Shown piece after piece: positions 1,337 to 63,630 of a stretch of 64,000 bases of DNA. The stretch is from Talaromyces rugulosus (Eukaryota; Ascomycota; Eurotiomycetes; Eurotiales; Trichocomaceae). The position numbers and the translations under genes are program-made. Within the stretch, counting starts at the first letter, position 1, and each line of letters begins with the position of its first letter. Where the stretch lies: positions 5,154,001 through 5,218,000 of the forward strand of contig NC_049564.1 of assembly GCF_013368755.1 (NCBI RefSeq). Direction: 5' to 3'. The notes under the pieces are model-generated. The model made no database searches. It had not been told where the DNA came from and saw nothing but the letters and a program-made list of their open reading frames with translations.

Positions 1337-3044
1337 CTAGATATATTTGTACGGATTCATAATCCCGTTCTATACCATCATTAGCATCCGAAATACCATG
1401 CATAGTATAGTAGTAGTAGTGAGAATGGAGACTTACCGGGTCATAAAGATTCTTCAGCTGCTTCATCAGCTTGATATTGGTCTCGTTCTGGCTGTAGCCG
1501 ATAAACTCCTTCTTGGCAACTCCGAGTCCGTGCTCGGCACTGATGCTGCCATTGCGCTTTGCGATCCATTCGTATACCCACGGCTCAATGGCCTTTTCGA
1601 CCTCCTTGGTGTATTGTCGGACCGAAACGTTCAAATGCAGATTCGAGTCTCCCATATGACCGTATCCAACAACAGCACGGACGGGGAATGAGTCGTCGTC
1701 GCCCACGAGCCCTTTCTCAGTCAGACGGGCTTTGCAGTCGTCGACAAGCTGGTAGAGCTCAGGCAGGGGGATAGAAACGTCGTATTTGTAGGTTCCGCCG
1801 AGATGGCTGAGGGCTTCGGTGATGCCTTCACGCCACCGCCAGAGCGACTGCACTTGTGTTTCGTCTTGGGCAAGGACGCCGTCTGCAACAATGCCTTCGC
1901 CCAGGACGTGCTCGAGGAAGGTTTCCAGCTTGGCGATGTCATGCTCGGCATTGGATCCGCTGGTTTCGATGAGGCAGTAGAAAGGGTGCTCCCCTTCAAG
2001 AGGCTGTTTGTTGCCAGTGGATTGACGCACCAACGCCTGGCTGCGACCGTCCATCAATTCAAAGGCAGAGAGGATTTCCGAGAGCTGGCCCTTGGCTTCA
2101 CGGAAGGCTTTGCGGACCTGTTCGAAGCTATCCAAGCCAAAGTACGCAACATTGACGGCTTTTGGGCGAGGCGGGCAAATAATAGAGACACCAGTGATGA
2201 TACCAATAGTACCCTCGGCACCAATCAACAGCTGCTTGAAGTCATAGCCAGTATTGTTCTTGCGCAGCTTCGACAGGCTGTCTACGATAGTTCCATCTGG
2301 TAGGACGGCTTCCAGTCCCAGCACAGTACCGTGAAGACTGCCATAGCGAAGGAGACGGAGACCTCCAGCGTTGGTCGCGACGTTTCCACCGATATGGCAC
2401 GATCCCTTGGCTCCGAGGTCCAATGGGAAGAGATGGCCTCGCTCGGCGAGATACGAATCAGCAACCTCCAGAATGACACCTGCATCGGCAACAAGGACAC
2501 CGGACTCGTCATCAAACGAGCGGATCTGGTTCATGCGAGCTGTGTTGATCACGATCTCATCAAACACAGGCACAGAGCCTCCGACCAAGCCCGTGTTTCC
2601 ACCCTGCGGCACAACGGCCAGTTTGTTCTCATTGCAGTACTTTAATATCTTGCTCACTTCTTCCGTAGTCCCGGGCTTCAGCACGAGTCGAGTCTGTCCG
2701 CCGTATTTGCGCATCCAGTCGCCGTTGAAAGGCGCGAGGTCGTCCGTGGCATCGGTGGTAACGCCATCGATAATTGCCGATTCGGAGCCGAGCAGTTCTT
2801 TGAAGTGCTTGACATGCTCCTCCGTCACCTGCGCAAATGTAGGATCTCGCTTGATTTGAGGATACGCGGCGGCGGTCAGTTGGATTTTCTTGGAGGCGTC
2901 AGCGGGCGTGGCGGCCGTGACGCTGAAAGGGCGCGAGTTCGCGACCGCGATCGACACAATCGACGACGACGGTCTTGGTGAACAACGATATCTAGGCACT
3001 CGAGCCCTCCGCAGGGCAGCTGTGATACCCCGAGAAGTCGACAT
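1337..3044 (-). CDS. Mitochondrial FAD-linked D-2-hydroxyglutarate/D-lactate dehydrogenase
   Basis: Oxidises D-2-hydroxyacids (D-2-hydroxyglutarate or D-lactate) with FAD and passes electrons on in mitochondria; Dld2/D2HGDH family. Exons are 1437-3044 and 1337-1369 (546 aa). The 67-nt intron has a clear TGCTAAT branch point, and splicing replaces a frame-shifted tail by [10 protein letters not shown], the usual end of the family. The FAD-binding PCMH motif reads [15 protein letters not shown], and the C-terminal FAD-oxidase domain has [13 protein letters not shown] and SAEHGLG. The first about 40 residues are Arg/Ser-rich without acidic residues, as in a mitochondrial presequence. I chose the ATG at 3044 (context CACCATG) over the in-frame one at 3089. 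It lies 262 nt from the start of the MAT2B-like gene on the same strand. D-lactate versus D-2-hydroxyglutarate preference is not resolvable here. Confidence 0.9.
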
Positions 3045-4711
3045 GGTGTGTTGTTGTGGCAGTGGAAGATTTTCAAAAGTTGTAAGCACCAGTCGTCAGA
3101 CGCGGGAAATTTGTAGTATCAGGAACAGCCGCCGCCGGTTGCGGAGGCTCGGCTGATTCTCGGAAATGCACCCCGAGTGAAGTGTTTTCCGACATTATTG
3201 ACTTTATTTATTGCTGCATTATCTAGACAATTTCGGAAATTGATCTGACTATTGTCAATTGCATCTGCATGCCAATATTTTATACTTATATGCCTATCCA
3301 ATGTTTTTTTCATGATATGCATGGCAAGATCTAGCATTTGAACTACATATCAATATATAAATGTACTCCGATGTCAGGAACTTAACTACCTTGATATTCC
3401 ATTTCACTATCAACATCAATTGATTGAATCATTCTATTTAATCGACATACTTGTGTCGCTGTGGATCAATTTTACCTTCCCTTGTTTCACATGTTCGCTC
3501 CATCAATCGGCTGGTTAATCTCTAAGTATATTCGTGATTACAAGAAATTGAATTCACTGCACAACATTGAAAGGTTGCTCCATGGCTAGGAACATTTGAA
3601 TTGCTTGATGAAATTTCCTTCGTCCTGCTTGTTCAATGGCCTCCAATAATTATTGTTCGACACCATCGGCAATATAAATAGATGTTTGGGGAGTGGGGGA
3701 GCGAAGGATTACGCTTGTTACAATCCCTTGAAGGAGCTAAGACCCCATTGTGCATCGTTTTTACCCCAGATTATAATTAGATTGTAACCAAATAAGTGTG
3801 ACTCTGGTTGCATCTGTGGCATTTTCATTCATCCCACTAAGCGGCATATGCAATGCACAACAACACAGCAAGGAATGCCTTTCTGGTATATCTTGTCGTG
3901 AATAACCGTCATCGTGTGACCTTCCATCTGCAGCGACTTGAGGCTATAGCAGTATAGCGTAACATTCCATCTGCAGCTGTAAAAACAAGGATCAATTGTG
4001 TTTTTCGAGGGATGACAGTGGCGGGGATGGCTTCCACGTCCTACTGATATCAGTCCATGCGAGAGCTCCGCATTCCAGTGGCTAGCGTGGTAGATAGCCT
4101 TTCTCCGACGCCAGTTCGTGACGATTGATAGGAGAATGACACCAGGTGATTGATGTCTGTCATGTCATGACTCGTGAAGACAGTTGGAAGTTGGACCTCG
4201 AGCTGTTGATATATAGCAGCACGGATAGCGAGGTGCAAGAATCGAAGAGCGCAAAGAAGCAGTCGGAGCTGCAACGATAAGATTCCTTCCCATAACGCCG
4301 AACGAGAGCGGCCAATAATTGAACTTAAACAGGAGCGAGTACAGAAGATCTGGTCGGACCATCCCTTGATTGAGTCAAATCAGTCTCGAGCAGGCAAGGC
4401 GCGGCCGATTATTGCAGACGCACTAGCCGCATCGGGGACTAGCGCGGCCCGTTGCTCGGGGCGACCGTGTTTCCTCGGCGGAGAACCGAAGCTCACCTCC
4501 TCCTAGTGCTCTATCGCAGCTGCGAGCTCGTCGGGCTGGAAAACTAATTGAAATAATTACACTTCTCCCCCCTTTTCCCTTCCCCGATCGCAGACTTCCT
4601 GGCCCTTCCATCTCAAGCGCCGGTTCGTTGCTGGAATTCTTCTGCGCTGCGTCTTCCCGGCACTACAGGTTGTTGCTTGTTTATGCGGTGCAATTGGGCT
4701 CTGCGCACAAG
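3045..4711. other. Intergenic, divergent promoter region
   Basis: About 1.7 kb between the divergent dehydrogenase and kinase genes. It is AT-rich up to about 4.0 kb and has a pyrimidine-rich run near 4561-4585, which is the likely kinase transcription start area. No convincing gene, repeat or RNA was seen. Confidence 0.6.
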
Positions 4712-6784
4712 ATGGCGGTCGACAGCAGCATGGCGAGCCGATACCAGGTGATGGAGGAACTGGGCAGTACGTTATCCTCCAATTGGTCGAGTGTGTCTCA
4801 GTCACAATGCTTACGGTCCTTCAGGTGGTAGCTTCGGCACGGTTTACAAAGCCATTGAGAAGGCTTCGGGGGATATTGTGGCTATCAAACATGTGAGTGA
4901 TTTTTCTCGTCTGTCTGACTCTGCCCGCAACTAACAATTGGCTGCTCGCTAGATCGATCTAGAGTCGAGCGAGGACGACATCGCCGAGATCCAACAAGAA
5001 ATCTCGGTCCTGGCCGCATGCGCAAGTCCCTTCGTCACCCAATACAAAGCCAGTTTCCTGCGAGGTCACAAGCTATGGATTGTCATGGAGTACCTGGGGG
5101 GCGGTTCTTGCTTGGACCTGGTACGTCATCGAGGCCTTGTCATCCGATCGAAAGGTGGAATTTGCTTACAGGTTCTAGATGAAACCCGGTATCGTCGATG
5201 AAACATACATTGCGATTGTCTGCCGGGAACTGCTTCTTGGATTGGACTACCTGCACCGAGAAGGAAAGATCCACCGCGATATAAAAGCAGCCAACGTTTT
5301 GCTCTCGCATTCCGGAAAGGTCAAGCTGGCAGATTTCGGAGTAGCTGCCCAGCTCTCCAACATCAAGTCGCAAAGAAACACATTCGTCGGAACACCATTT
5401 TGGATGGCGCCTGAGGTGATCCAGCAGTCGGGATATGATTTTAAAGCTGATATTTGGTCACTCGGTATTACCGCTATGGAACTGGCGAATGGAGAGCCAC
5501 CTCACGCCAGCACGCACCCGATGAAAGTGCTTTTCCACATCCCCAAAGCCCCGGCCCCCCGCTTGGAGGGCAACGAATTCAGTCAAAGTTTTAAAGACTT
5601 TGTCGCCCAGTGTTTGATCAAGGATCCTGATCGCCGGCCGACAGCAAAAGAGCTTCTCAAACACAAGTTTATCCGCTATGCAGGAAAAACAGAGGTATTA
5701 CAGGAATTAGTCCAGCGTAAGCAAGACTGGGACAATGGAAAGGACTTGGAGGACGATACCAGATATTATGCTGAGACTCTGTAAGAAACTCGTGGCATGC
5801 AATGTTTTTTGTATCGAAACTGACTCTTTTGCTAGTACTACCTTTACACCGAAAGAAGAAGATGACGATGGGTGGGTGTTTGACACGGTCAAGGCACCAA
5901 CTATGAAGAAGCCGTTTATTGCCCAAGACTACTGCGACGATCCTTTTGTGACGACAGAGGAGCTTAGTACAATGACTCCTCAAACCGTATCCAAGCCAGT
6001 TGCGAACTCGACTGTGCGTCGGACGCCTGCGGCAGAGCAATCCCCGTCTATTAAACGGGCCAACACAAAGCGCAGGTCCAGTGGTATCAAACAGCCACTT
6101 GGATTGAACCTGAGTTACGGAAACAGTCCTTCTACTGTGCGCCAGTTCCGCCGAGTATCAGACCGCACTACGAACGACTCGGCACAGAGCTACAACTATC
6201 CCCCGGGGATGGACGAGAACGCAGGCGCCAAGACTTTGTTTACCGATCCTGTTCCTAACAGCAAGGAGGCCCAACTAGGACGAAGGGCATATAGCAAGGG
6301 AATCGGAATTGCTTGCCAGGAGATCCTATCAAATACGGGAGACCAGGAAAAGAGAGAAGCAATCTCGCGGCTGGCTGAGGCTTTCAGTGACCTAGAGATG
6401 GTTGACCCTGAGGGACTTTACCATATAATTAAGATGTCCAACGAGAAGATGCAAAGGTAAGAATTTCTCTGCTGTTGACATGGCCAAGATTTTTGACAAC
6501 TAACTACTCGGCTCAGTGATTCCAAGCTTTCTTCACTCATCCCCGAGCCAGTGCAATCGGGATCGCCTCAGAAGCCCAAGCTCGTCCTCGCTCAGAACAA
6601 CCCTCATCTCAAGAGTCACCGACGTCGGCAGTCCGAACAGATCCCGGTTGACACGAGCTTGAGCCCATCACTGGCCAACTTGCCTGGACAGAGCGCCCCC
6701 GGTATGGACCACACCAAACAGCTAGCTGATGTCCTTTACCAGCGATGGAGTGAAGGCCTCCGCAACCGATGGCCGGCCATTTAG
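4712..6784 (+). CDS. Ste20/germinal-centre family Ser/Thr kinase (Sid1/SepL-like)
   Basis: Protein kinase of the GCK (MST-like) branch of the Ste20 family. Fungal members act in septation and morphogenesis signalling. Six exons: 4712-4766, 4825-4892, 4953-5120, 5179-5780, 5836-6456, 6517-6784 (593 aa). The kinase domain fills roughly residues 10-270: glycine loop GSGSFGTV from about 18, ATP lysine K40 in VAIKH, catalytic loop [10 protein letters not shown] with D131, DFG at 149, and the Ste20 signature GTPFWMAPE near 168. The remaining half is Ser/Arg-rich, with a conserved helical segment ([20 protein letters not shown]) near the C-terminus. All introns are 55-60 nt and phases match. [15 protein letters not shown] after the lysine resembles Sid1/SepL, but Kic1/Nak1-type assignment is possible, so no symbol is given. 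Confidence 0.92.
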
Positions 6785-8044
6785 GCATCTCCAATCCTCA
6801 GTCCGATATACCCTCTGTTCTAATACCCGCCTTTTCCTTGTCCTATATAACACAAGAGTTCCGTTCATTGTATAACATTTCCGTCGTTACCCGAGATACC
6901 CGACCCATCCTCTCTTTTGAAATTTTAAACACCGCCGAAGCAGATATTCGCCGTTGGCGCCACTTATGCCTCACCTATACCTACACTCTCACTCACCCTC
7001 TCACGCTCACTCTCTCTCATCGAAGAATGACTCTTCTTCTATAGTTCATCACCGCTTTATGAGATGCTGTGATCATTTCTTCCTGGAAACCACTGTCCCC
7101 CAAATGCACACTGCACTCCGAAGCGTGTCCACCATTGTATTATTGGAGTTCGGTCTCATGATTCGCTTCTATCTTCTTTTCTCCAGGAACTTGCACGGGC
7201 AAGTTCGTCTGAGAAGGTCAAGTTTTAAATTTTCTTCTTTTTTCTCTGCTGATATTTTGGTCTCATTATTTGCCTCAAATCTTTTTGTACAACTTTCTAA
7301 CCTGATCGCCCCTGATGTTTGTTGCTGCGCGGGAGGCAGACTTTTAATCATCCAGTCGGCTTGCATTTTGGTGTTTTCGGATTCTTTGATAGATATTGCG
7401 GGACGCCCTTGTGTACTGTATTTTTTTATGCTCATGTCCATACGTTTAAGGTGTTATTGGAGGACGTGGACGCTGTGCAGACAGATAGCTATGTCTGATC
7501 GTGCCATGTATGTAGAATAGACAGAGAGTACCGAATTAAAATCATTCTATATTTAATAGTATTTTTTTCAAAATCTGACTGGTATCCTACATGTAGTTAG
7601 GAAATAAATCATATTTCGCTGGCGCCATCCTATCTATCACACTAACAATTCCAATTACCGTACTCTTTCGCGTTCCATGAACCGAGCAAGAAAGCGTAGT
7701 CCTTCATTCCAATGGCTTGTGCGGGTCGATCATTAAGTGCCCAAAGCTTTTTTCAAATTTGATTCTTTTTCGAGTACGACGCTAAATCCAACTAGAGCTC
7801 TTAACGCTAAACCCTTTTTTGTAGAGAGAGTCATCAACAGTGACTCGCCATTCATTAGGGCAAGATTTTTAGAGATACAAGGTATCGAATGTAATTTTTA
7901 CAGAGATTTTAAATAGTCCTAATTACCAGTGGAAATCGATCATTCCTTGATTCCTCTCCTCTCGAATTCTTGCCCAACTATCTATATACAGCTAAAGGAA
8001 CGGCCAAAAATTGACCTATCGTTTATCCAAGCCCATCCATCATC
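6785..8044. other. Intergenic: kinase 3' region and next promoter
   Basis: About 1.26 kb. The first 700 nt are T-rich and probably hold the kinase 3' UTR. A 188-codon open frame at 6954-7520 shows no domain and I treat it as chance. The 7561-7980 part is AT-rich. No other feature is supported. Confidence 0.55.
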
Positions 8045-9208
8045 ATGACAGACAAAAACCCTAGAGACCAAAATCCGACTATGAAGTCCCTCGCAATCAA
8101 GGAATACTGCACGCCTGATCAATACGCCATACTGACATTGCCAGTCCCAAAGATAGAACAAGCGGACCAACTGCTCATCAAAGTGCATGCTGCATCCATC
8201 AATCCAATAGACGTTAAAGTAGCTGTTGGCGTTGCAAAACGGGTTCGGTCTGAACAGTAAGTTATTCCCAACATAACAAGGAAAACAAATTCTCATTGCG
8301 GTGTGCCCACTAGGTTCCCATTCAAAATCGGATACGATGTCTCCGGGACCGTTATTGCAGTTGGAACAGAAGTCGCCATTTCCTCCCCCGATCTAACACC
8401 CGGTACTGAAGTATACACTCGTCTCCCAGAGGAATGCCGGGGTGCTGTTTCGGAGTATGTCGTCTCAACGATTTCAGCAACGGCAAAAAAGCCTCAAACG
8501 ATATCTCATGCCGAAGCTGCGTCTATACCGTTGGCGTCATTGACTACCTTTCAGACATTCGAGACGGCTGCCGAACATTTTAGGGATAGTAATGGTTTGG
8601 CTGGCAAGACGGTACTTATCCCCGGAGGTCTTTCAGGAACGGGAACTGTGGCCGTTCAATTGGCCAAGCGGGTGTTTAAAGCAGGGCGAGTGGTCACCAC
8701 GCTGTCCACATCAAAAATCGGCCGAGTCAATGGACTACTTGGGGAAGACGTACTAGATCAAGTGATTGACTACACCAAGCAAGACCCGTTGAAAACCATT
8801 ACACCTGGCTCAGTGGATTTTCTGTACGACACCATGGGTCAAGGCGTCTCATACCTCCCCCTTATGAAAAAGGGAGGCATCATCGTGTCCATCAGTGGAC
8901 CACCATTCGGACCAGAATTGAAAAAGATTATGCCAATGATGCCGACGGGTATTAGATGGATGCTGAATGCGGCCGGTGGTGTTCTTCGGTTCAAAGCGTA
9001 CATGTATTCTGTTACTTATACATGTCAACTCATGAAACCCAGCGCGAAAGACTTGAATAAACTGGCTGGTTGGATTGATGAGGGTAAAATTAAGCCCGTG
9101 GTCGGCCTAAAGGCTGCCTTTGGTGATTTGGAGAAGGTGCGTGAGGGTTGTCAACAAGTCTATTCTGCAAAGGGCGGTATTGGGAAGTTTGTCATCGAGA
9201 TGGATTAG
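8045..9208 (+). CDS. Zinc-independent MDR oxidoreductase (quinone reductase-like)
   Basis: Medium-chain dehydrogenase/reductase of the quinone-oxidoreductase/RTN4IP1-like type, which reduces quinones or activated double bonds with NADPH. Exons are 8045-8256 and 8314-9208 with a 57-nt intron (368 aa). The N-terminal GroES-like part has AASINPIDVKVA and, across the junction, FPFKIGYDVSGTV. The Rossmann part has a nucleotide-binding stretch GGLSGTGTVAVQLAK and a typical LYDTMGQG. No structural-zinc Cys cluster is seen. An ATG 36 nt further in is an alternative start. It converges on the bZIP gene with only 82 nt between stops. Regulation by that factor is possible but only suggested by proximity. 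Confidence 0.88.
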
Positions 9209-9290
9209 TTAGCTAATCGGTTATGTACTGTATCTAGATAGATATTTTTCTTTCTTTCATTTAGCTAGAAATAGCACAAGTTCATTGCCG

Positions 9291-10605
9291 TCAAAGCAAA
9301 TCCTTTTCCGTAATCATGAAAGCCTTAGGATCCAGTCCCTCAACCAATTCTGGGAACTCCTTCCAGAATGCCTCCAATATAACCCAATTGTGCACATTAG
9401 AAGCCCTCTCCAAGAGTGAAACGTCAATACGAAACGCCTCATCTTCGGATTCAAACGAAGGAAAATTAGTATTGTGTGTACCGCGGATACGACACGTGCA
9501 GAAAAGCAAGCCAAAGACTTCATTTTGCCAGTATTTTGAACCATGCTTGATGAGATTATCGCGAACCTGCGGCCACATAATGTAGTCAATCAGATTGGCA
9601 TGCGGAAATAAGAGTTGCATCATAGTTGGCTTCAGTGCAGGTGGAACTCGACTGTAATTTTCTTGGGATGGGTCAATGGTCCACTATACATACATAGGTA
9701 AAATTAGCAAAAGATGATTATAAAGCCAGGATAAAAAAAATACAAGTATTTACCCGGGAGAAAAGGTAACTATTCCAACTAATGGCAAGCCTCTCGGGTC
9801 GCCGCATGACACTTTGTGATGTTATCCGAAAGAAAGTATTGGCAAGTTCATTCAAAGATCCACCAAGCATCAAATCAACAACTTTGGGATAGGGTGTGCA
9901 AAATTTAGCGAAATCGGACTGATCTCGTACTTGTCGAATTGCAAAATCAAGTGGTTTCCCACAATCGTGGGTGTTAATTTGCACTGGTAGTCTTTGCCAT
10001 TCGGCGAGAGATAGCACATTTGATAGTGATAAGTCTGTAAAGCTTTCTGTGGAATATTCACGAGAAGAGGAAGGCGAGGAGGAAGAAAGTAGATCTCGTC
10101 CAGCTTGAGAATAGCTGTTCTCTGCATTGTTATATGAAGCTTTTTCTGTGTCAGGTCTCGGATTAGAGTTACTGTTACTGGACTGTTCTGAGCCATCACA
10201 GAACATAATCGATAGAGTCTTGGTATCGGTAATTCCGGTCAAAGGCAAAATCACCTTATCAGAACTATTTATTAACTGTGACGAGCTACTTTTTTCTTGA
10301 GAATGGTCTCTTTTCAAGGAAACCCACGAGGCCATGAATTCATTAACCACGGTCACATGTTTCTTCAGAGCTTCATTTTCCGATGTAATCTCTCTCAACT
10401 TGTCGGACAGGTGGCGGGCATCCTCACTTGAAGTTGAACTTTGCGACAATATCCTCACTTGCTGCTGCAAGTTTCTATTCTCATTTTGAAGACCCAGTAT
10501 AGTTTCTCTCTCCTTCAAGCGTTTCCGTCTTTGGTTTTCGCGATCCCGTTCGCGTTTTCGTCCCTGGTCAATAGTTGTTGTTTCACGACGCTTTGGACTC
10601 GACAT
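9291..10605 (-). CDS. bZIP transcription factor with DUF3425
   Basis: Two exons, 9754-10605 and 9683 down to 9291, separated by a 70-nt intron (414 aa). The N-terminus carries a basic region (RENQRRKRLKERE) followed by leucine/heptad-type spacing (ILGLQNENRNLQQQVRILS), which is the layout of fungal bZIP factors. The C-terminal part matches the DUF3425 pattern: a LIDYIMWPQVRDNLI core with preceding HANLIDY and a final acidic stretch. Splicing joins SYLFSR to WTIDPSQENY, a typical DUF3425 junction. The start at 10605 is the first ATG; the upstream frame has only a TTG. DUF3425 bZIPs often control stress or secondary-metabolism genes. Its target here is unknown; the convergent MDR gene is the closest candidate. 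Confidence 0.85.
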
Positions 10606-53954: not shown

Positions 53955-54631
53955 TCAATCTGTTAGACCAGGGATTTTTGTCGCCCCTAATAGACTGCCT
54001 GTTTCCGTCTTCACTGGCGCGGAAGGAATGACCACAGTCATAAAACGGCAATGAACACTACCGGTATTTTTCCATCCATGCATTGTCCCTCTTGAAGATG
54101 AAGAAAGGAGTGAAAAATGTTAGCATCCATAATCATGCTCACTATTGAGTCTTTAGGTTTGATAGAGTCCAAATCTTACCTTTGTACAAAAACGTCGCCT
54201 TCTGACAAAGTCTCCTCCACGCCATCGTCAAGAATGAGAGTGATTGATCCTTTCAAGATGACTCCATAGTCTAAGCTTTGGTTACGATGCATATACACCG
54301 GTTCTTTCGTCTGGCTTAAATCACTAGAAGCCGACAGCGGTGGAACATCGACTATCTCGCAAACAATGTTTCCTTGCGCATGCTTTGAACGGGCGAGATT
54401 TTCAGTAGAAAATTCATTTCTTGGGCCCTGTGGCTCAACGGGATAGTTGGTCGTTCGATGTATGAGATAAAACCCCGGAACTGATTGCTCATTCTCAGTT
54501 GTAATGTCTGCGCGTGGACTAACAGAATTGATATGGTCGTTATGAGTGAATACTGCCTTGCCATCTGGTGTATGCCCGGTAACTAGCCGGCGTGTTAATG
54601 GCAAATGGGGTAGAGGGTGAAAAGACGACAT
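53955..54631 (-). CDS. Cupin-domain protein
   Basis: Small beta-barrel protein of the RmlC-like cupin class. Exons 54180-54631 and 53955-54090, 89-nt intron (195 aa). Cupin motif 1 is degenerate: PVYMHRNQSLDYGVILKGS, where the first metal His pair is reduced to one His. Motif 2 reads SEGDVFVQRGTMHGWKN and is spread over the intron. This family of stand-alone fungal cupins often sits in metabolic gene clusters. It may be an isomerase, decarboxylase or a non-enzymatic binder; metal dependence is doubtful. It is divergent from the lyase gene, sharing a 364-nt promoter with an exact CCGAWWWWTCGG site almost at its centre. Confidence 0.85.
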
Positions 54632-54780
54632 TGATTTATTGTTTCGAAAACTGGATAAGAGGAGGAAGTAGACAAATAAACGATATTAAAACCACGCGTA
54701 ATTGAATCGACAAATATCCAGAAACATAAATAATAATAAATAATTATTAAAAGCCAAGTCAATATAGAGTAATGATGTTC

Positions 54781-54792
54781 CCGAAATACCGG
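54781..54792. promoter_or_regulatory. Looser CCG-N6-CGG site
   Basis: CCGAAATACCGG: outer half sites as in the cluster palindrome, inner A/T rule broken by one C. Second site in the cupin/lyase promoter. Confidence 0.45.
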
Positions 54793-54811
54793 CGACACTC
54801 ATATCAAGAGG

Positions 54812-54823
54812 CCGATTTATCGG
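54812..54823. promoter_or_regulatory. Cluster palindrome copy 1, CCGATTTATCGG
   Basis: Exact match to CCGAWWWWTCGG, embedded in the longer palindrome GGCCGATTTATCGGCC (54810-54825). Everted CCG/CGG half sites six apart, as bound by dimeric Zn2Cys6 factors. Confidence 0.7.
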
Positions 54824-54995
54824 CCACGGAAAATATCACTTCGTCCCTGAAACCGCCATAGTACAAACATATGTAATTAAACAATCGCCAAAAGTTTAAT
54901 CAATATTTTTTTCTTCTCTCGAAATGTTGAAACTATTTCCTGGCCTACAGTTTCCGAGGATACCTTAGGAATACATCCTATTACATCGACGAAAC

Positions 54996-55937
54996 ATGCC
55001 TCCTAGTCAAGAACAGAAATTATCAGCAGCAGCTCGTCTTCGGGCTAACCTCGCCGACCAGTCAAAAACAATAATTTGTCCCGGCATTTACGATGGTATA
55101 ACAGCTCGGATAGCTCTTAATGAGGGATTTGAACATATCTATATGACCGGAGCTGGCACAGCCGCAACCCGCTTGGGTGTACCGGACCTGGGACTGGCAA
55201 CTATGAATGATATGGTTGCAAATGCACGCACGATTGCATCTTTGGATCGCTCAATTCCCTTAATCGCTGATGCCGATACCGGTTATGGAGGCCCTTTAAT
55301 GGTCGCACGGACAGTTAAAGAGTACATGACTGCCGGCGTAGCAGCAATGCATATCGAAGATCAAGTTGTAACGAAGCGATGCGGCCATCTCTCTAACAAA
55401 GAGTTGGTCGATGAGGACATCTACCTCAGTCGGATTCGAGCCGCTGTGATGGCACGAGAAGAGTTGTCGGAATCGTGGCCGGGAATGGATATTGTCATTA
55501 TTGCACGAACAGACTCACTCCAGTCCCTGGGATACGACGCTGCTGTTAAACGCCTTCAAAATGCAGTCTCGATTGGTGCCGATGTCGCTTTTCTCGAGGG
55601 AATGACAACAATGGAACAATGCCGGAGTGTCTGCACCGACTTGGCACCCACCCCGGTGCTATTGAATATGGTAGCTGGTGGAGTGACACCCGATTTGAGC
55701 GCCGATGAAGCTGCAGGTCTGGGTTTTAAAATCATCATCTTTCCCGCCGTGTGTCTTAGTCCGGTTGTGGACGTAGTTACGCAGGCTCTAAAAACCTTCA
55801 AGACATCACGGAGAAATGAGGTTAGTGATTTCCAGCGGCAGACCGGTGTCAGAGGCTTTTTCAATGTCTGCCGTCTAAATGAATATTTGGAATTCGACCG
55901 TCAAGCCGGTGGGAGTTCATTTAATGGAGGAGTCTAG
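54996..55937 (+). CDS. Isocitrate lyase/PEP-mutase superfamily C-C lyase
   Basis: Mg-dependent lyase or hydrolase splitting a C-C bond of a 2-hydroxy- or 2-oxo-diacid, as in methylisocitrate lyase, dimethylmalate lyase and oxaloacetate hydrolase. Single exon, 313 aa. Substrate entry motif CPGIYDGITARIA; metal site ADADTGYGG (D92, D94); flexible loop EDQVVTKRCGH with C129; then IARTDSLQSLG and FLEGM. The Cys in KRCGH marks a lyase; phosphonate-forming PEP mutases lack it, so phosphonate chemistry is unlikely. Length (313) is near single-domain members. No organelle signal. Shares a promoter with the cupin gene. Natural substrate unknown; oxaloacetate or a substituted malate are the simplest guesses. 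Confidence 0.9.
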   Translation: MPPSQEQKLSAAARLRANLADQSKTIICPGIYDGITARIALNEGFEHIYMTGAGTAATRLGVPDLGLATMNDMVANARTIASLDRSIPLIADADTGYGGPLMVARTVKEYMTAGVAAMHIEDQVVTKRCGHLSNKELVDEDIYLSRIRAAVMAREELSESWPGMDIVIIARTDSLQSLGYDAAVKRLQNAVSIGADVAFLEGMTTMEQCRSVCTDLAPTPVLLNMVAGGVTPDLSADEAAGLGFKIIIFPAVCLSPVVDVVTQALKTFKTSRRNEVSDFQRQTGVRGFFNVCRLNEYLEFDRQAGGSSFNGGV

Positions 55938-56124
55938 AATCCTGCTAGATGTCAGAACTGGGGCTGCAGTGAATATCACTAGGCTTACTTAAGCGGACAA
56001 AATTATTGGTCATAAAGCCAGCATAGCCTTTCATAAATTTCATATTAAGTAGTTATCAATTTAATTGGCACTCGTTGAACATAAGTCCCTTTAATTGGGG
56101 TGGGGGGGGGTTATCTGGATAGAG

Positions 56125-56139
56125 TTAGGGTTAGGGTTA
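56125..56139 (+). repeat. Interstitial telomere-type repeat, TTAGGG x2.5
   Basis: TTAGGGTTAGGGTTA, the fungal telomere unit, beside a run of ten G (56101-56110). May act as a Tbf1/Myb-type box or mark an old chromosome end; also able to form a G-quadruplex with the G-run. Confidence 0.8.
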
Positions 56140-56177
56140 CCCCGGGATCGGTGCTTTCTGCCCCCGCAGGTCATATG

Positions 56178-56189
56178 CCGAGTTCCCGG
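56178..56189. promoter_or_regulatory. CCG-N6-CGG site before the regulator
   Basis: CCGAGTTCCCGG, 61 nt before the regulator ATG. Keeps half sites and spacing of the cluster palindrome but not the A/T core; possible autoregulation. Confidence 0.4.
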
Positions 56190-56249
56190 AGACCTGAAAC
56201 GTTACAGCTCCAGCGTGCATACGATATCGTCCTTTTTGTCCTGATCACA

Positions 56250-58493
56250 ATGCCCGTTCCTAGATCCAATGTAAGGAGCAAGGCGTGTGTAGAATGCAGG
56301 CAGCAAAAGGTATGTAAAGTTAAACATGCCATACTATTATCGAGCGGTCTCAGTTAACGAGTAGAGGTAGCTGCGCTGCGACGCTCATCTGGAATCCTCC
56401 GGTCCATGTTCAAGATGTCGCAAGACAGGCGCTGACTGTATTATATCCGATACATTTCGCCGAAGACCAAGAAAAACGTAACCGGCCAAAATCCCAAGCG
56501 ATTACAATATGAGATCCCAGACCTAACAAACTTACTGTTTAGGAAAGCGCAGATGCAGCGTGAGATCGATAGCCTGCGCCAGCAAGCACAAGTGCAAGCG
56601 AATCGCTCAACAGAATTGAATGAAAACATACAAGCAATATATTTGAGCTCGCCCTCCGAGCATCCCCATGAGGAAGCCGTGGTAGATAGTGACACTAGCC
56701 GTCAGCACGAGAACATTGAAGATCAAACAACTCGTTTGCAAAAGACAATAACCATACCCCGGGCTATAGATGGGCTAGAGTTGGAGTCTTATAAAATTGA
56801 TGATTGCTTCTCATTGTGAGTATCCCGTGTGATTTCCACCAACAAACAGACGCTGATGCTGAATTAGGTTTTTTAAACACTACTTCAAAACTCTTCCTAT
56901 AGTTGATCAACGAAACGATCCGAATTGGTTTTATGACTATTCACCACTTTTATTCTGGACAATACTGGCGATTGGCTCACGAAAATATGAACAGGACCCG
57001 ACAATTCTTGAGAGCTTGGGCCCCAAAGTTACCGCTTTGACAATGCAGTCCATGCTAAAACCTCACGAGCATATGAAAACAATACAGAGCTTGCTTTTGC
57101 TATGCATGTGGCCATTTCCAATGGATACAATGATCACAGATGTGTCCCTCTCTATGACGGGAGTGGCAATGCAGTTGGCCTTGCAAAATGGGCTACATTC
57201 TTTTGGACGTCGGCAAGATTTTACCGTGCAAATTACGCAAAATGAGAAACAAGATCTCTTTCGACCAAGGCTGTGGTCACATTGCAAGGCAGTCTGTCAA
57301 ATGTATGTTCTACACCTTGTATTTTCACAAAATCTCCTACTGATGGGGAGGCAAAAGCACAAGTATTGTCAATGGATTGCAGCCATCAGTAATCACCGAT
57401 GCATTTGACTTACCACCCGACCAGCAGCAAGAAGCCTTAAATATTCTTTCACCTGACATATTCTGGGCCCACAAACTACAGGGTGCTTTTACAAGAGCAA
57501 TAACGGCCTTAATGGCGCATATTTACCCTGTCACAAGCAAACCACTCTGTCCTTTAATAGATAATTGGGACAACCAGATCTTGGAAGTAGTTCAACAGGG
57601 AGGTGGATACCTTGGTAAGTAAAAGTTCTAAACCTTCATGGAAAAGTTGCGAAAGGGTTCTTACTCAGAGATAACACAGCACACGACCAAGTCTCGGTTC
57701 TCTTCATGCGCCTACATATTGGGACATTTTATTTCTACGACAACGACGAACCTGCGCGGCACAGTCGGCTCATAGCACTGTATAATACTGCGTGTTCATT
57801 TATCGACGCCGTGGCATCTGCGGATAAAAACCACGATTACGCTCTATACACCCCAGAGTTTATCTACCGGTCATTGAACCTGGCCGCTTGCGCAATTTTA
57901 CGCATATCGCGAAGCAACCTTCGTGAATATGTCGATGTAGTCATTGGTGAACGCGCCTATTTTTCTTGTATTAATGTCCTGAAACGTCGCATGATTCGAA
58001 ACAATGACCTCAATGGTCGTACTACCGGCGTTCTTACTCAGTTATGGAGAAGCCCGCAAGCATTCAAACAGAAGGACGGATCGTACAATAGCTTGGTGGT
58101 TCGTATACGAAGCCGTGGGGTATGTTCTGTCTCTCTTATCTGTAAAACTTCCACAGAATGGTATCAAGGCTGATTTTCTCGTTATAGTCTATGGGCATAT
58201 TTTTTGACTGTTTCTGGTATTGGCAACGAGAGTTCAACAACCAAATAGACCCATATTATGACCAGAGCAATACCTCACAGCCTTCTGCAACTACTAATTC
58301 CCAGGAAGGTGAAACTGTAGTTGCTCCACCTACCAGTGACCCGGGGGTCACGCCGCACATTGATCCTACCACAGTCACCGGCGATGAGCAGCTATTCCCC
58401 TTCCTAAACACTGAGTTTTTTCCGGACTGGGATTCTATGGACGGATTTCAGATCCCGTCTTTTGTAGCTGGGTTTGCGTCAATTGAGAATTAA
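56250..58493 (+). CDS. Zn2Cys6 transcription factor, putative cluster regulator
   Basis: Fungal binuclear-zinc activator. Exons: 56250-56309, 56371-56477, 56543-56815, 56868-57302, 57358-57614, 57680-58119, 58188-58493 (625 aa). Six zinc Cys over the first junction: CVECRQQK then LRCDAHLE and PCSRCRKTGADC, spacing C2C6C9C2C6C. A basic linker (FRRRPRKTK) and a short coiled coil (MQREIDSLRQQAQVQANR) suggest DNA binding as a dimer. The middle part resembles the fungal-specific factor domain (LFWTILAIGSRKY, LWSHCKAVCQ). The C-terminus is acidic with Asp/Phe/Trp (FFPDWDSMDGF), a likely activation region. Acceptors at 57357 and in the last intron were chosen by frame and similarity. The first in-frame ATG in the leader, at 56174, would add 25 residues. 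It sits inside the block whose promoters carry CCGAWWWWTCGG. Confidence 0.85.
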
Positions 58494-58815
58494 CCTTCAT
58501 GACCTGGTTGCTTGTAACTAAATAATTATTGATTTTATTTTAACATAAAACATTATTGTTGTTACTACACGTCCACATTAATTGACCGAATAATCGGCCT
58601 GAGTAAGCTTCAAGACGGCTATCGCATGCCGAAAACCCGTTCACAATGGATCTCCGCTTGTCAAGAAAGAAAAAAGCGCCTTTGATTTGTAATCTAGTGT
58701 GCCTGTACCTCGGTGAATTATGCTCATTTATTATCGGTCTTTCCAAACCACCGCACCTATGCTTCTTGTTAGACCGAATTAAAAAAAAAGGGAGAGAATC
58801 GAGAAATAGGAAACA
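58494..58815. promoter_or_regulatory. Promoter of the cluster MDR gene
   Basis: 322 nt between the regulator stop and the MDR start. Contains the palindrome at 58586-58597, about 220 nt before the ATG. Confidence 0.55.
58586..58597. promoter_or_regulatory. Cluster palindrome copy 2, CCGAATAATCGG
   Basis: Exact CCGAWWWWTCGG match, 218 nt before the MDR ATG, continued to the right by CC as in copy 1. Confidence 0.7.
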
Positions 58816-60032
58816 ATGCTGGAGCTAATAATTCATCCTGGTCCCAAGACCGAATTGATCGAGTCGTCTATTCCCGTTCCTAACGACGACCAGATTGTTA
58901 TCAGAGTGATAGTCTCCGGGAGCAACCCAAAAGATTGGAAAAGGCCAGAATGGCTAGACGTGCATATTAATCAAGGAGATGATATCGCGGGGACCGTTTA
59001 TCTAGTTGGGAAAAATGTAACAGAGTTCAAGGTATGTTTATGAATTGTTTATTTATGTATGAGAAGATGAATACTGAAGCTTAAAGCCTGGCGATCGAGT
59101 TGCTGCATTCCACGAGATCATGGGGCCTGGAGGCAGTTATGCGGAATATGCATTAGCATGGGCATCGACAACGTTTCATATTCCCCATAAAACGTCATTT
59201 GAAGGTTGCTCCCAGACTATTGAACAAACTTGATGACCACGCTAACACCGAGTTACAGAGGCAGCAACTATTCCGTGAGCTTTCTCTGTAGCATTATTCA
59301 ATATGCAAGTATCTAACTTCTGAAACTAGCCTTGCAGCAATGACAGCTGCATTAGGTGTCTTCTCGCGCCTGGAACTTTGCGATCCATGGACCCCCCGCC
59401 ACCCGGACAATCCGGTTTTGATATATGGTGGTGCGACGGCTGTTGGATCTTTTGCATTGAAATTCGCCATCAAAGCAAACGTACATCCTCTAATAGTTGT
59501 CGCCGGGGGTGGCGCAAAATACGCCGAATCACTGATTGACCGCTCCAAAGGCGATACAATCGTTGATTACCGTAAGGGTGCCGATTCCTTGGTTGAGGAA
59601 ATCCAAAGTATTCTCGGCAAGTACAAAGTAAACAAATTAACTCATGCTTTTGACACAGTATGTGCACATGGAAGCTTCAAAAACATCCTCCGTGTTCTTG
59701 ACCCAACCCAGGGTAAGGTGGCTTGTGTTCTACCTTTAACTGAGGATCAACTGCCATCATCTCCAGTCAATGCTGAGATTTTGCAAACAAATGTCCGATG
59801 TGTACACGGGCAGCCAGGAGGTCTCCCTGGAGACCCAGATTTTGGGTTCGTTTATTTCCGATACTTTGCTAAGGGCTTAATGGAAGGTTGGTTTTCTGGT
59901 CATCCTTACCAAGTTCGAGAAGGTGGTCTGGACGGAGTTGAGGGTGCACTGAGAGATTTGAAAGAGGGCAAAGCTAGTGCTGTTAAATACGTCTTTCGGA
60001 TTGAAGATACACCGGCGTTGAAACGAACCTGA
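58816..60032 (+). CDS. MDR oxidoreductase of the accessory block, with 16-nt exon
   Basis: Zinc-independent medium-chain reductase, close to fungal trans-enoyl reductase/quinone reductase types. Exons: 58816-59031, 59087-59204, 59259-59274, 59330-60032 (350 aa). The third exon is 16 nt and codes for EAATIP; the joined text reads TSFEEAATIPLAAMTAALGV, the standard MDR helix. The GroES-like part has VIVSGSNPKDWKRP, then DDIAGTVYLVG and PGDRVAAF. The nucleotide-binding turn is IYGGATAVGSFALKFA; later comes FDTVCAHGSF. Exon 2 ends in the weak donor GTTGCT. Likely reduces an alpha,beta-unsaturated carbonyl. Promoter holds one palindrome copy. Its closest partner in the window is the other MDR gene at 8 kb, but the two are not close copies. 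Confidence 0.87.
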
Positions 60033-60678
60033 ATATATTTAGAGATATGTATCTAAACACAGGCACATGCAGTATTAAGTTACAAAATTTAACTGTTCTG
60101 GGCAGTATTTCTTATTAAATAGATACTTCTACAGTATCTCTTGATGTATTAGTTCTCGGTTGATCCAAGGTTTCTATAATTAACTGCTGAGTTCAAGTTG
60201 AAATTCTCGCTGTCATCTGTCTCGCCTTTGCTGCATGTATTTCAGTATTGATATTCCTTGAACGCTCTGTATAAAACTGTCAACTGGTATTCGTCATGAT
60301 TTTTCTTAAGGAGAAAGAAACAAAACATATTTTATGCAGCAGATGTTTATGCATGCTTTAATTTTACCACAACCGCCATAAACTGCCGAAATTCCGTATT
60401 GGTTTCATTAATCTATGATGTACATAAAATTTGTATGTCTCAACACAAAATGCCAATTGATCCTCCCCGATTTTTCGGAGTGTCAATCCCCAGGTTCCAT
60501 GTTGAAATTACCCTTCTATTGTGATTAAATGGAGTCTAATGAGAACCCAGGGGTTTCAATAATTAAAAAGCGAGGAATATCACCATGAAATGAAATTAGA
60601 ACCAAAAATTGCAACTTTCGCATTGGATAAATCGAACTCTAAATTTCTTCAACGTATTAAACAAATACATTAAACACC
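60033..60678. promoter_or_regulatory. Intergenic, promoter of the tandem CMD gene
   Basis: 646 nt, AT-rich. Contains CCGATTTTTCGG at 60467-60478, about 200 nt before the ATG. No other gene. Confidence 0.55.
60467..60478. promoter_or_regulatory. Cluster palindrome copy 3, CCGATTTTTCGG
   Basis: Exact CCGAWWWWTCGG match, 200 nt before the CMD gene start. Confidence 0.7.
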
Positions 60679-61446
60679 ATGTCTCTATCGCCAGAGAAAG
60701 AAGCACTCCGCTCCCAATTCATGAGCACGGGAAGCACCTGGACTCCGGCGTTGGAAGAAGTGTTGCAGGTAGATCCTTCTTACTTCGCGGCATATCTCAA
60801 AATGCACCATGCCGCATTCAACCGTCGATGCCTTCCGCGTAAAGTCCAGCATCTTCTGATTCTGGCAGCAGATGCAAGCTGCTGCACAGAGTACGGGCCG
60901 GGTATTCGTGCCAACATGGCTGCGGCGCTCGCTGCCGGCGCAACCCAAGCAGAAGTCCTCGAGACCCTCGAACTTGCATCCGTCTTAGGGATTCACTCGG
61001 TCAGCTGTGGCGTTCCACTTTTGCACGAAGTTTTGGCGGAAGAAGGCAAACCAGCGATATTCAATGGTGAATCTCACACATGGAACAAGTACCAGTCAGA
61101 CCTGAAAGACCGCTTTACGGCTACTCGAGGATATTGGCACCCGGGTTGGAATGAAGTTCTTGCACTTGACCCCGATTTCCTCGAGGCCTATCTTGCATTT
61201 TCGGGAGAGCCATTTGATGAACGTAAAAGTGTCTTTGATCGAAAAACCAAGGAGCTGGTTTATATTTCCATTGACTCGGCTAGTACGCATATGTTTCTTC
61301 CAGGATTGAAGCTACATATCCGAAATGCTATCAAACTTGGTGCCACTCCGCAGGAGATTATGGAAGTGTTTGAACTGGCGAATTTGATGGGAATTCATAG
61401 CATGTTGGAAGGTGTTACAACATTGAAAGAGCTCACCAAAGAGTGA
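60679..61446 (+). CDS. Tandem carboxymuconolactone-decarboxylase-like protein
   Basis: Single exon, 255 aa, two AhpD/CMD-fold units head to tail. Unit 1 (about 15-120) and unit 2 (about 140-250) share a plan: W-P near the start, EVL..DP then AYL, later an ELA..GIHS..G helix (ETLELASVLGIHSVSCG versus EVFELANLMGIHSMLEG). Bacterial CMDs decarboxylate gamma-carboxymuconolactone; AhpD members use a CxxC. Here unit 1 has CC (ASCCTEYGPG) and unit 2 none, so peroxidase-type redox chemistry is unlikely. A cyclic-intermediate decarboxylase or isomerase is possible. Starts at 60679 in context CACCATG. One palindrome in its promoter. Confidence 0.87.
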   Translation: MSLSPEKEALRSQFMSTGSTWTPALEEVLQVDPSYFAAYLKMHHAAFNRRCLPRKVQHLLILAADASCCTEYGPGIRANMAAALAAGATQAEVLETLELASVLGIHSVSCGVPLLHEVLAEEGKPAIFNGESHTWNKYQSDLKDRFTATRGYWHPGWNEVLALDPDFLEAYLAFSGEPFDERKSVFDRKTKELVYISIDSASTHMFLPGLKLHIRNAIKLGATPQEIMEVFELANLMGIHSMLEGVTTLKELTKE

Positions 61447-61989
61447 TTTACGGAAGTTAACATTGAACAACATTGAAACGATCCTCTTCAAACTGGGATT
61501 TTATACCGGTTTCCTTGGGGCTGTTTTGAATACTTCATATACTTCAACAAGTTTTTATATTGGTAGAAGTACCTAGTGCCAATCCTCATGTTGATTTATT
61601 TGCTGGTTCTGATTACATCAATTGATAGTTCTTTAAAGTTCTATTTCATCCTTCTAGACTTATAATCGTTTTGATGCAGCGGGTTATAAATGGACTATGG
61701 ACACACAAAGCTCGGTATACTGGTAACTCTTCATAGAATATGCCACTGGATTTAATCCATTGAAATCCTATGGTATCTATTCTTGATTGGTTTGTCGAGA
61801 GAGCTCGAGACAAGGGTCAATGGGGAAAGCAGCTTTCCACCGTTGCGTCAGATAATTAATGTAGACTCTACCAAAGCAACAGGATATTAGCTATTTAACC
61901 TTGTTATTTCAAATGTTCGATAGAGAAACAATAGTTATGTAAAATAACATTAATGAACTAATATCAATATCCTCGGATCCTGGAGAATG

Positions 61990-62001
61990 CCGAATTTTCG
62001 G
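61990..62001. promoter_or_regulatory. Cluster palindrome copy 4, CCGAATTTTCGG
   Basis: Exact CCGAWWWWTCGG match, 364 nt before the oxygenase ATG. Confidence 0.7.
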
Positions 62002-62046
62002 AAATTTACTAAAACGTTCATTCCTGAGGTTGTGCATTAAGTTATG

Positions 62047-62065
62047 AAAAAAAAAAAAAAAAAAA
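62047..62065. repeat. Poly-A tract, 19 nt
   Basis: Between the two palindromes of the oxygenase promoter; could exclude nucleosomes. Confidence 0.85.
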
Positions 62066-62165
62066 CAAATTCAAAGATCTAATTTTTATTGTCTATGCAT
62101 TGTTGGTTTGAATTGTGTAAATGAACATAATATGATCGAAGTCATAACGGAACTCCGGCACAGCG

Positions 62166-62177
62166 CCGAATTATCGG
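62166..62177. promoter_or_regulatory. Cluster palindrome copy 5, CCGAATTATCGG
   Basis: Exact CCGAWWWWTCGG match, 188 nt before the oxygenase ATG. Confidence 0.7.
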
Positions 62178-62365
62178 ACAGCGAGTTATTTCACAAGATT
62201 CTACCGATTGATAACCGGAGACTCACGGAAATTTCGCTTTCAGACATATATGTAAAGACCGGAAAGAACAGAAATTATAAAATCGAATTAGTCGTCTCAA
62301 GGCTACTCATGCATACATGCACTAAAAACAGAAATCACAGCAAGTGTTAAGTTTTTGATACGAAT

Positions 62366-63630
62366 ATGGCTGGCCAGACGCTCCCAGAAGTGGATCACTT
62401 CGTCCCCGTCGAGTCTTCTAAAGAAGCCATTGATTTTGTTGATCTCAAAGTTCTCGACTTTTCCAAGTATGATATCGGCCCAGAGGAGCGCAAGCAGCTG
62501 GCGGAACAAGTCCGGCAGGCGATGACTACCCAAGGGTTTTTCACAATCATCAACCACGGAATCAGTCAGAGTGAAATTGAGCGTCAGGTGGACATTGGTC
62601 ATACCATTTTTAAACGCACCACGGCAGAAGAGAAGGAATTGGCTAGAGCCCCCATTGTTGAAAAGGGCTCATACTTTGGATTCAAGCCTCGCGGTCACTG
62701 GCGTTTGATAGAAGGCAAGAAAGACAATATCGAGAATTTTAACGTCTCGTAAGATCATTACCTTCAGTTATTATTGTCAAAACAGATATTTGATTTTATA
62801 TGTGAGCTGATTGAAAGATATAGCCGTGATATGGAGCAGACTCCCCAGCCTACTCCCATGAAACCCTTTATTCCAGAAATACAGAAGTTTGTGGATTTCA
62901 CACACAAGGATATTTTGTTCAAAGTAGGTGCACTAAATATTGATAAGAACAATGGGAATGGGAATGAACTGGTACCTGACTTTCGTCTTAGATATATCGT
63001 CTTTTCGCCATTGCTCTCGAGATTGATGAGGAGGACTTCTTCGTTAAGCTCCATGATTATAACAAGCACGATGAGTCGTGGCTCAGGTACATGGAGTACT
63101 ATGACGAGAAAGATCCAAAAGATTCCAATGGCGAGAAAGCTCTGTGGCTGGGGGGTCACCAAGACCTCTCAGCCTTGTCATTGCTCTTTAGTCAGCCGAT
63201 GTCCTCGCTACAGGTTCGCGATTACGACGACGATTCCAAATGGAAGTATGTCGCGCACACTCCCGGAGCTATCATCGTCAACGCCGGGGAGATTGTCAAA
63301 TGGTGGACGGGAGATTACTTCAAAGCCGCAATACATAGGGTTGTACAGCCACCACAGGACCAAAGAGGGCATGACCGGAGCAGTGTCTTTTACTTTGCAG
63401 TACCCAATGATGATGTAGTGATCAATACCCTACTCGAGGAGAGCCCGGTATTGAGGGCTGCTGGTGTTGAAAGAGCTCATAAACCGGAGAATGCACCCAC
63501 AAGCAAAGAATGGGTGAACGCACGAGTTCAAATGACTGGCCAAAAAGCCGCCTTTGGTGATGAAGGAGGGAACAAAGAGAACAGTGTCGTTGAGAAGGTT
63601 GGAAAGGTCACGACTACCTGGTTCCGTTGA
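62366..63630 (+). CDS. 2-oxoglutarate/Fe(II)-dependent oxygenase
   Basis: Non-haem iron oxygenase of the isopenicillin-N-synthase/gibberellin-oxidase type. Exons: 62366-62748, 62818-62923, 62992-63630 (375 aa; introns 69 and 68 nt). The DIOX_N part reads VRQAMTTQGFFTIINHGIS. Iron ligands are H219 and D221 in LGGHQDLSAL and H278 in KAAIHRVVQPP; R292 with S294 (DRSSVFYF) binds 2-oxoglutarate. The first intron's acceptor (after GATTGAAAG) was chosen since the earlier CAG leads to a stop. Probably hydroxylates, desaturates or cyclises the pathway intermediate. Its promoter has two palindrome copies, the most in the block. Confidence 0.9.

Follow-up and report, generated by a model that had tools for sequence, protein, structure and literature searches.

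A 64-kb stretch of contig 4 of the Talaromyces rugulosus genome (35.76 Mb, six contigs), hereafter the window, contains a block of six genes within 53.9 to 63.6 kb whose promoters carry the palindrome CCGAWWWWTCGG or related sites. A cupin gene on the minus strand is followed, all on the plus strand, by genes for a lyase, a Zn2Cys6 transcription factor, an MDR oxidoreductase, a CMD protein, and a 2-oxoglutarate (2OG) oxygenase. Gene models were built by hand from reading frames and splice signals, and domains were assigned with Pfam on open reading frames (ORFs) and, for the factor, the cupin, and the MDR protein, also on the spliced models.

53955..54631, minus strand: cupin-domain protein, 195 amino acids, exons 54180-54631 and 53955-54090; hand-made model; Pfam Cupin_2 34.9 bits, above cut-off
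54996..55937, plus strand: lyase of the PEP mutase/isocitrate lyase superfamily, 313 amino acids, one exon; Pfam PEP_mutase 132 bits
56250..58493, plus strand: Leu3-class Zn2Cys6 transcription factor, 626 amino acids, seven exons (56250-56309, 56371-56477, 56543-56815, 56868-57302, 57364-57614, 57671-58119, 58188-58493); hand-made model, open throughout
58816..60032, plus strand: MDR-superfamily oxidoreductase, 350 amino acids, four exons (58816-59031, 59087-59204, 59259-59274, 59330-60032); hand-made model; Pfam ADH_N above cut-off
60679..61446, plus strand: CMD-family protein, 255 amino acids, one exon; two matched CMD stretches, Pfam CMD 65.5 bits
62366..63630, plus strand: 2OG/Fe(II) oxygenase, exons 62366-62748, 62824-62923, and 62992-63630; hand-made model; Pfam DIOX_N and 2OG-FeII_Oxy on exon ORFs

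A preliminary description of this DNA had reported five exact copies of the 12-mer, at 54812, 58586, 60467, 61990, and 62166, and none elsewhere in the window. Our scan recovered exactly these five, all inside 54.8 to 62.2 kb. A relaxed search with CCG-N6-CGG found two more, at 54781 and 56178, and with these all six genes have a site (distances are from the site center to the ATG).

54781..54792, CCGAAATACCGG: second site in the cupin/lyase promoter, 31 bp from 54812; one base off the 12-mer with CCG-N6-CGG intact
54812..54823, CCGATTTATCGG: divergent cupin/lyase promoter; exact match, 178 bp to the lyase ATG and 186 bp to the cupin ATG
56178..56189, CCGAGTTCCCGG: 66 bp before the ATG of the factor; weaker match, core with two C and one G; proposed to be autoregulatory
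58586..58597, CCGAATAATCGG: MDR promoter; exact match, 224 bp to the ATG
60467..60478, CCGATTTTTCGG: CMD promoter; exact match, 206 bp to the ATG
61990..62001, CCGAATTTTCGG: oxygenase promoter, distal; exact match, 370 bp to the ATG
62166..62177, CCGAATTATCGG: oxygenase promoter, proximal; exact match, 194 bp to the ATG

The nearest site lies 155 to 224 bp before the ATG of the five target genes, and the distance of about 170 to 220 nucleotides given earlier for four of the exact copies agreed with our measurements.

In dinucleotide shuffles of the window, 0.05 copies of CCGAWWWWTCGG were expected, close to the 0.06 of the preliminary description, and none of 100 shuffles reached five. A looser pattern, CCGANNNNTCGG, yielded the same five places in the window and is weaker alone, with 1.05 copies expected and 1 of 100 shuffles reaching five. 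The whole genome contains 33 copies of CCGAWWWWTCGG, as against 23 for a control pattern read backwards, and the 28 copies beyond the block correspond to about 0.05 per 64 kb, i.e., the chance rate. They are also placed as random placement would give: 20 of the 28 fall within ORFs of at least 120 amino acids, which make up 62% of the bases of the stretches examined, compared with none of the five block copies (Fisher p 0.005). A scan statistic puts at 2.9e-9 the number of starts expected to be joined by four further sites inside the 7.4 kb of the block. A genome-wide regulon based on the exact 12-mer was therefore rejected. Likewise, the genome-wide count revealed no crowding of copies in promoters of unrelated genes, the outcome that the preliminary description had named as speaking against its reading.

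Three places among the outside copies were considered individually. Two exact copies 831 bp apart (C1:2525194/2526025; L007 4595 and 5426) were rejected as a second regulon, as both lie in one ORF of 2,883 amino acids, and were taken as chance. An exact copy, CCGATATTTCGG, is found at C4:1925885 (L027 1286-1297) between the ORFs of another Leu3-like factor gene, and another at C3:4827313, roughly 0.7 kb past the ORFs of a Zn2Cys6 gene; neither has a second site beside it.

The 12-mer was chosen after the sequence had been read, and the looser pattern shows no genome-wide excess (CCGANNNNTCGG, 517 occurrences versus 531 for the reversed control), which might indicate that the block sites are chance matches or remnants of a repeat without a regulatory role. 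However, the lack of a genome-wide excess is to be expected if the block is the sole user of the pattern. Moreover, the seven sites have different flanking sequences and are thus not a single repeat in several copies. As the 12-mer had been picked by eye, we also made an unbiased census of triplet pairs in the five promoter regions, in which every pair with a gap of 0 to 20 was counted, for a nominal total of 43,008 dyads. The three highest-ranking dyads all belong to the proposed motif. First came CCG-N5-TCG with 12 counts, a number inflated because a perfect palindrome is counted twice; CCG-N6-CGG came second, with 7 copies versus 0.11 expected (p 2.9e-11) and presence in five of five promoter regions; CCG-N7-GGC came third, with 8 counts in four of the five. 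After correction for 43,008 dyads, the value for CCG-N6-CGG is about 1e-6 under a mononucleotide model. With the window shuffles and the genome count against its reversed control, this census led us to reject a chance origin of the block sites, and chance or repeat remnants are an extremely improbable explanation in view also of the scan statistic and of the position of the exact copies outside ORFs.

Among the spacings, N6 alone stands out in this region. Right of 53.4 kb, everted CCG/CGG pairs with a six-base gap number eight, one of which (55898) lies inside the lyase coding sequence, while every other gap from 0 to 15 is represented by zero to four copies. The N4 spacing has three, at 54331 in the cupin coding sequence, at 55273 in that of the lyase, and at 56142. 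No CCG-N6-CGG occurs between 63 and 84 kb, a range that includes 20 kb right of the window. These observations refine the motif, in that the working unit is CCG-N6-CGG filled with A/T-rich sequence and not the exact 12-mer, and with this unit the promoter of the factor gene is included.

The preliminary description had pointed to the Zn2Cys6 factor of the block as a fitting partner for everted CCG/CGG sites, and the class proved right. The N-terminal Zn_clus domain (residues 11-51) scored 34.2 bits, above the Pfam cut-off, and the Fungal_trans middle domain 39.5 bits, with a cut-off of 23. The DNA-binding domain matched 19 solved sequences, of which the two of Leu3 were best by far (2er8, E 7e-11; next LAC9, E 1.3e-3), with 38% identity across the aligned domain. 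Leu3 is also the best solved match of the ortholog of the factor in Aspergillus ellipticus (E 9e-8). Leu3 of Saccharomyces cerevisiae is said, by Fitzgerald in 2006, to recognize everted CGG half-sites. According to the available parts of the respective papers, gel shift and surface plasmon resonance experiments show binding of CCGN4CGG by Aspergillus fumigatus LeuB, which is abolished by mutation of one CCG (PMC6221358), and Aspergillus nidulans LeuB also uses CCGN5CGG, a TamA target (PMC8262921). The block resembles these systems in its Zn2Cys6 domain, nearest to that of Leu3, and in its everted CCG/CGG half-sites, but the gap is N6 here as opposed to N4, or N5 for LeuB/TamA, and the targets form a six-gene cluster without a leucine synthesis gene: Pfam and solved relatives revealed no recognizable leucine synthesis enzyme among the six genes. 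Neither CCG-N6-CGG nor the 12-mer was found in print for Leu3-class factors in open-license papers. Other spacings (N3, N4, N5, N7, N8, and N10) led solely to papers on Leu3 or LeuB, and among the papers listed none dealt with this block. Thus, both the half-sites and their everted arrangement agree with the class of the factor, and the six-base gap is new for that class as far as the literature searched shows.

The promoter region of the factor gene contains two other elements. One, CCGGGATCGG at 56142-56151, is an everted CCG-N4-CGG with the spacing of Leu3 sites, 36 bp from the N6 site, and could be an input from LeuB. The other, at 56124-56139, is an interstitial telomere-like repeat, GTTAGGGTTAGGGTTA, directly after a run of G (approximately 56100-56110).

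Relatives of the block proteins were then compared for co-location of the proteins, using the best 120 of 3,745 matches for the lyase, the best 120 of 901 for the CMD protein, and all 68 for the factor. The lyase shares 87% identity with a lyase from Talaromyces proteolyticus. In this species and in A. ellipticus, factor, lyase, and CMD protein occur, among the matches listed, on contigs of equal length. In Pseudogymnoascus VKM F-4518 the locus tags of factor and lyase are neighbors, and in Fonsecaea pedrosoi they are four apart.

We consider it likely, from the sequence analyses, that the Leu3-class factor encoded at 56250-58493 runs a cluster-specific regulon, its own gene included, with the sites as operators. 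A number of observations weigh against this interpretation. The site of the factor gene, at 56178, is the weakest of the set, with a core richer in G/C and a position much nearer to the ATG. All Leu3 and LeuB sites that we found in print, in the available parts of the papers, have N4 or N5 gaps and never N6. Among the matches listed, Aspergillus heteromorphus has the lyase without the factor or the CMD protein, and Penicillium hispanicum has the factor (51%) without the lyase or the CMD protein. Last, the factor ranks seventh of 12 genome matches to the Leu3 domain, a rank to be read with caution because the domain of the factor is split by an intron and the last dozen residues of the Leu3 query were entered by hand; the factor is hence best seen as a paralog and not as LeuB itself.

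The six better matches, together with 44 genome matches to the factor in an exon-by-exon search, leave room for another regulator to read the sites, be it a Leu3-class paralog or a heterodimer like that of LeuB and TamA, which share the CCGN5CGG variant in the available parts of the A. nidulans report (PMC8262921); the encoded factor would then only contribute or would regulate something else. However, if a general regulator were at work, promoters in other parts of the genome should have the sites as well, yet outside copies are at chance level and the sites keep to the block of the factor. Factor and lyase genes also stay together in several fungi. We therefore regard control by a different regulator as quite unlikely.

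Cluster-specific regulons of this general kind are known. In the available parts of the report on the terrein cluster of Aspergillus terreus, the Zn2Cys6 factor TerR is likewise encoded in the cluster, its motif occurs in the promoters of that cluster except those of terG, terH, and terI, and a divergent promoter has several sites (PMC4360782). TerR differs in reading a direct repeat, TCGGHHWYHCGGH, with no coiled coil detected in the protein according to the same parts of that report (PMC4360782), and it also differs in class from the factor of the block, as does the terrein cluster in gene content. What is new here is the variant, with a Leu3-class factor and an N6 gap.

In the mechanism that we favor, the block's factor would bind CCG-N6-CGG, best in the form CCGAWWWWTCGG, as a homodimer with one CCGA half per subunit. 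It would control the cupin and lyase genes through their one shared divergent promoter, the MDR, CMD, and oxygenase genes through their own sites, and its own gene through 56178, so that the six genes are very probably controlled together and the factor is probably autoregulated. The homodimer on each CCG-N6-CGG is proposed to switch the block on, the factor gene too, rather than to repress it, when a metabolite of the pathway is present. The idea that the shared palindrome marks a regulon of the block, put forward in the preliminary description, is supported by the chance-level number of outside copies and the matching class of the factor, and is sharpened by this model.

The lyase suggests what the metabolite might be. 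Its best solved relative, over nearly the full length, is 2,3-dimethylmalate lyase (3fa3, E 4e-95), followed by oxaloacetate acetylhydrolase (3lye, E 6.9e-83). A TKRCGH stretch in 2,3-dimethylmalate lyase (PDB 3fa3, 3fa4) is identical in the lyase of the block, and the KRCGH part presumably holds the catalytic cysteine. According to the available parts of the report on LeuB and TamA (PMC8262921), 2-isopropylmalate makes Leu3 an activator. As this ligand is itself a substituted malate and 2,3-dimethylmalate lyase is the nearest solved enzyme to the lyase of the block, a substituted malate comes first among the candidates for the signal; by analogy, it may be one of the pathway of the block.

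Searches for relatives of the other enzymes gave few indications as to the pathway. The best solved relative of the MDR protein is the enoyl reductase LovC (E 1.2e-18), and the CMD protein has one solved relative, 2q0t. In 80 of 177 bacterial loci with CMD relatives, the neighborhoods contained no lyase and no cupin relatives, three MDR relatives, and two oxygenase relatives, and so provided no hint of a pathway. Two marine alphaproteobacterial contigs (L101 and L109) have, in the vicinity of a CMD relative, an oxygenase approximately 24% identical to the 2OG oxygenase of the block. No relative was found in viral contigs scanned with the lyase.

A second locus of the same genome (L040; 587-1425 minus, 2676-4241 minus, 6568-7143 minus, 9059-9694 plus) brings together, inside 10 kb, a Leu3-like factor, a BBE/FAD oxidase, an aconitase-family protein, and a lyase paralog (56% identical). 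Leu3-like factors may thus accompany substituted-malate chemistry more widely. This locus was rejected as an N6 regulon: it has a single CCG-N6-CGG, and six-base gaps are not enriched in it.

That the regulon is private, as first proposed, holds insofar as the 12-mer is at chance level outside the block, but it may not hold strictly because of a promoter 3.2 Mb away. There, two sites, CCGAATAGTCGG and CCGAAATATCGG, lie 41 bp apart (C4:1973422-1973474; L008 2823-2875), about 110 to 181 bp before two possible ATGs of an MFS-like gene. The same factor might also control this transporter, at C4:1.97 Mb, and perhaps its neighbors, a P450 gene and a reductase gene with flavodoxin, FAD, and NAD domains. 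This would extend our explanation rather than contradict it, and the transporter would supply the substrate of the pathway. From their appearance, the P450 may be CYP53-like and the MFS gene Dal5-like. The pair is the sole case, among the 28 background sites, with a CCG-N6-CGG neighbor within 60 bp, and of 12 places with close pairs, cores with no more than one G/C each are found at both sites only here and in the cupin/lyase promoter. Nevertheless, the pair turned up while leftover sites were being sorted, and close pairs as such are not enriched (62 versus 133 in the control; 8 and 7 versus 16 and 9). Furthermore, the P450-reductase intergenic stretch has no site, the third exact copy of the locus lies inside the reductase ORF, the Pfam MFS_1 matches on two exon pieces are below cut-off, and the link of these genes to the pathway is only putative. 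Control of the transporter gene in trans is accordingly a possibility that we take seriously without favoring it.

A broader scenario, conceivable but rather doubtful, is that a Leu3-class sensor has left leucine synthesis and been adapted to a private pathway. Its half-sites would lie two bases wider apart than those of Leu3, as CCG-N6-CGG, hence keeping it separate from LeuB; it would sense a substituted malate that is substrate or product of the cluster's dimethylmalate-type lyase, and it would reach the transporter gene 3.2 Mb away in trans.

The block thus offers a testable pairing of factor and site for a Leu3-class paralog with an N6 gap. It also delimits a six-gene pathway, in which a Leu3-like sensor is paired with a substituted-malate lyase, and this pairing hints at a possible signal. 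If the model is true, this would be a case in which a duplicated regulator separates from LeuB by the spacing of its half-sites while the half-sites themselves are kept.

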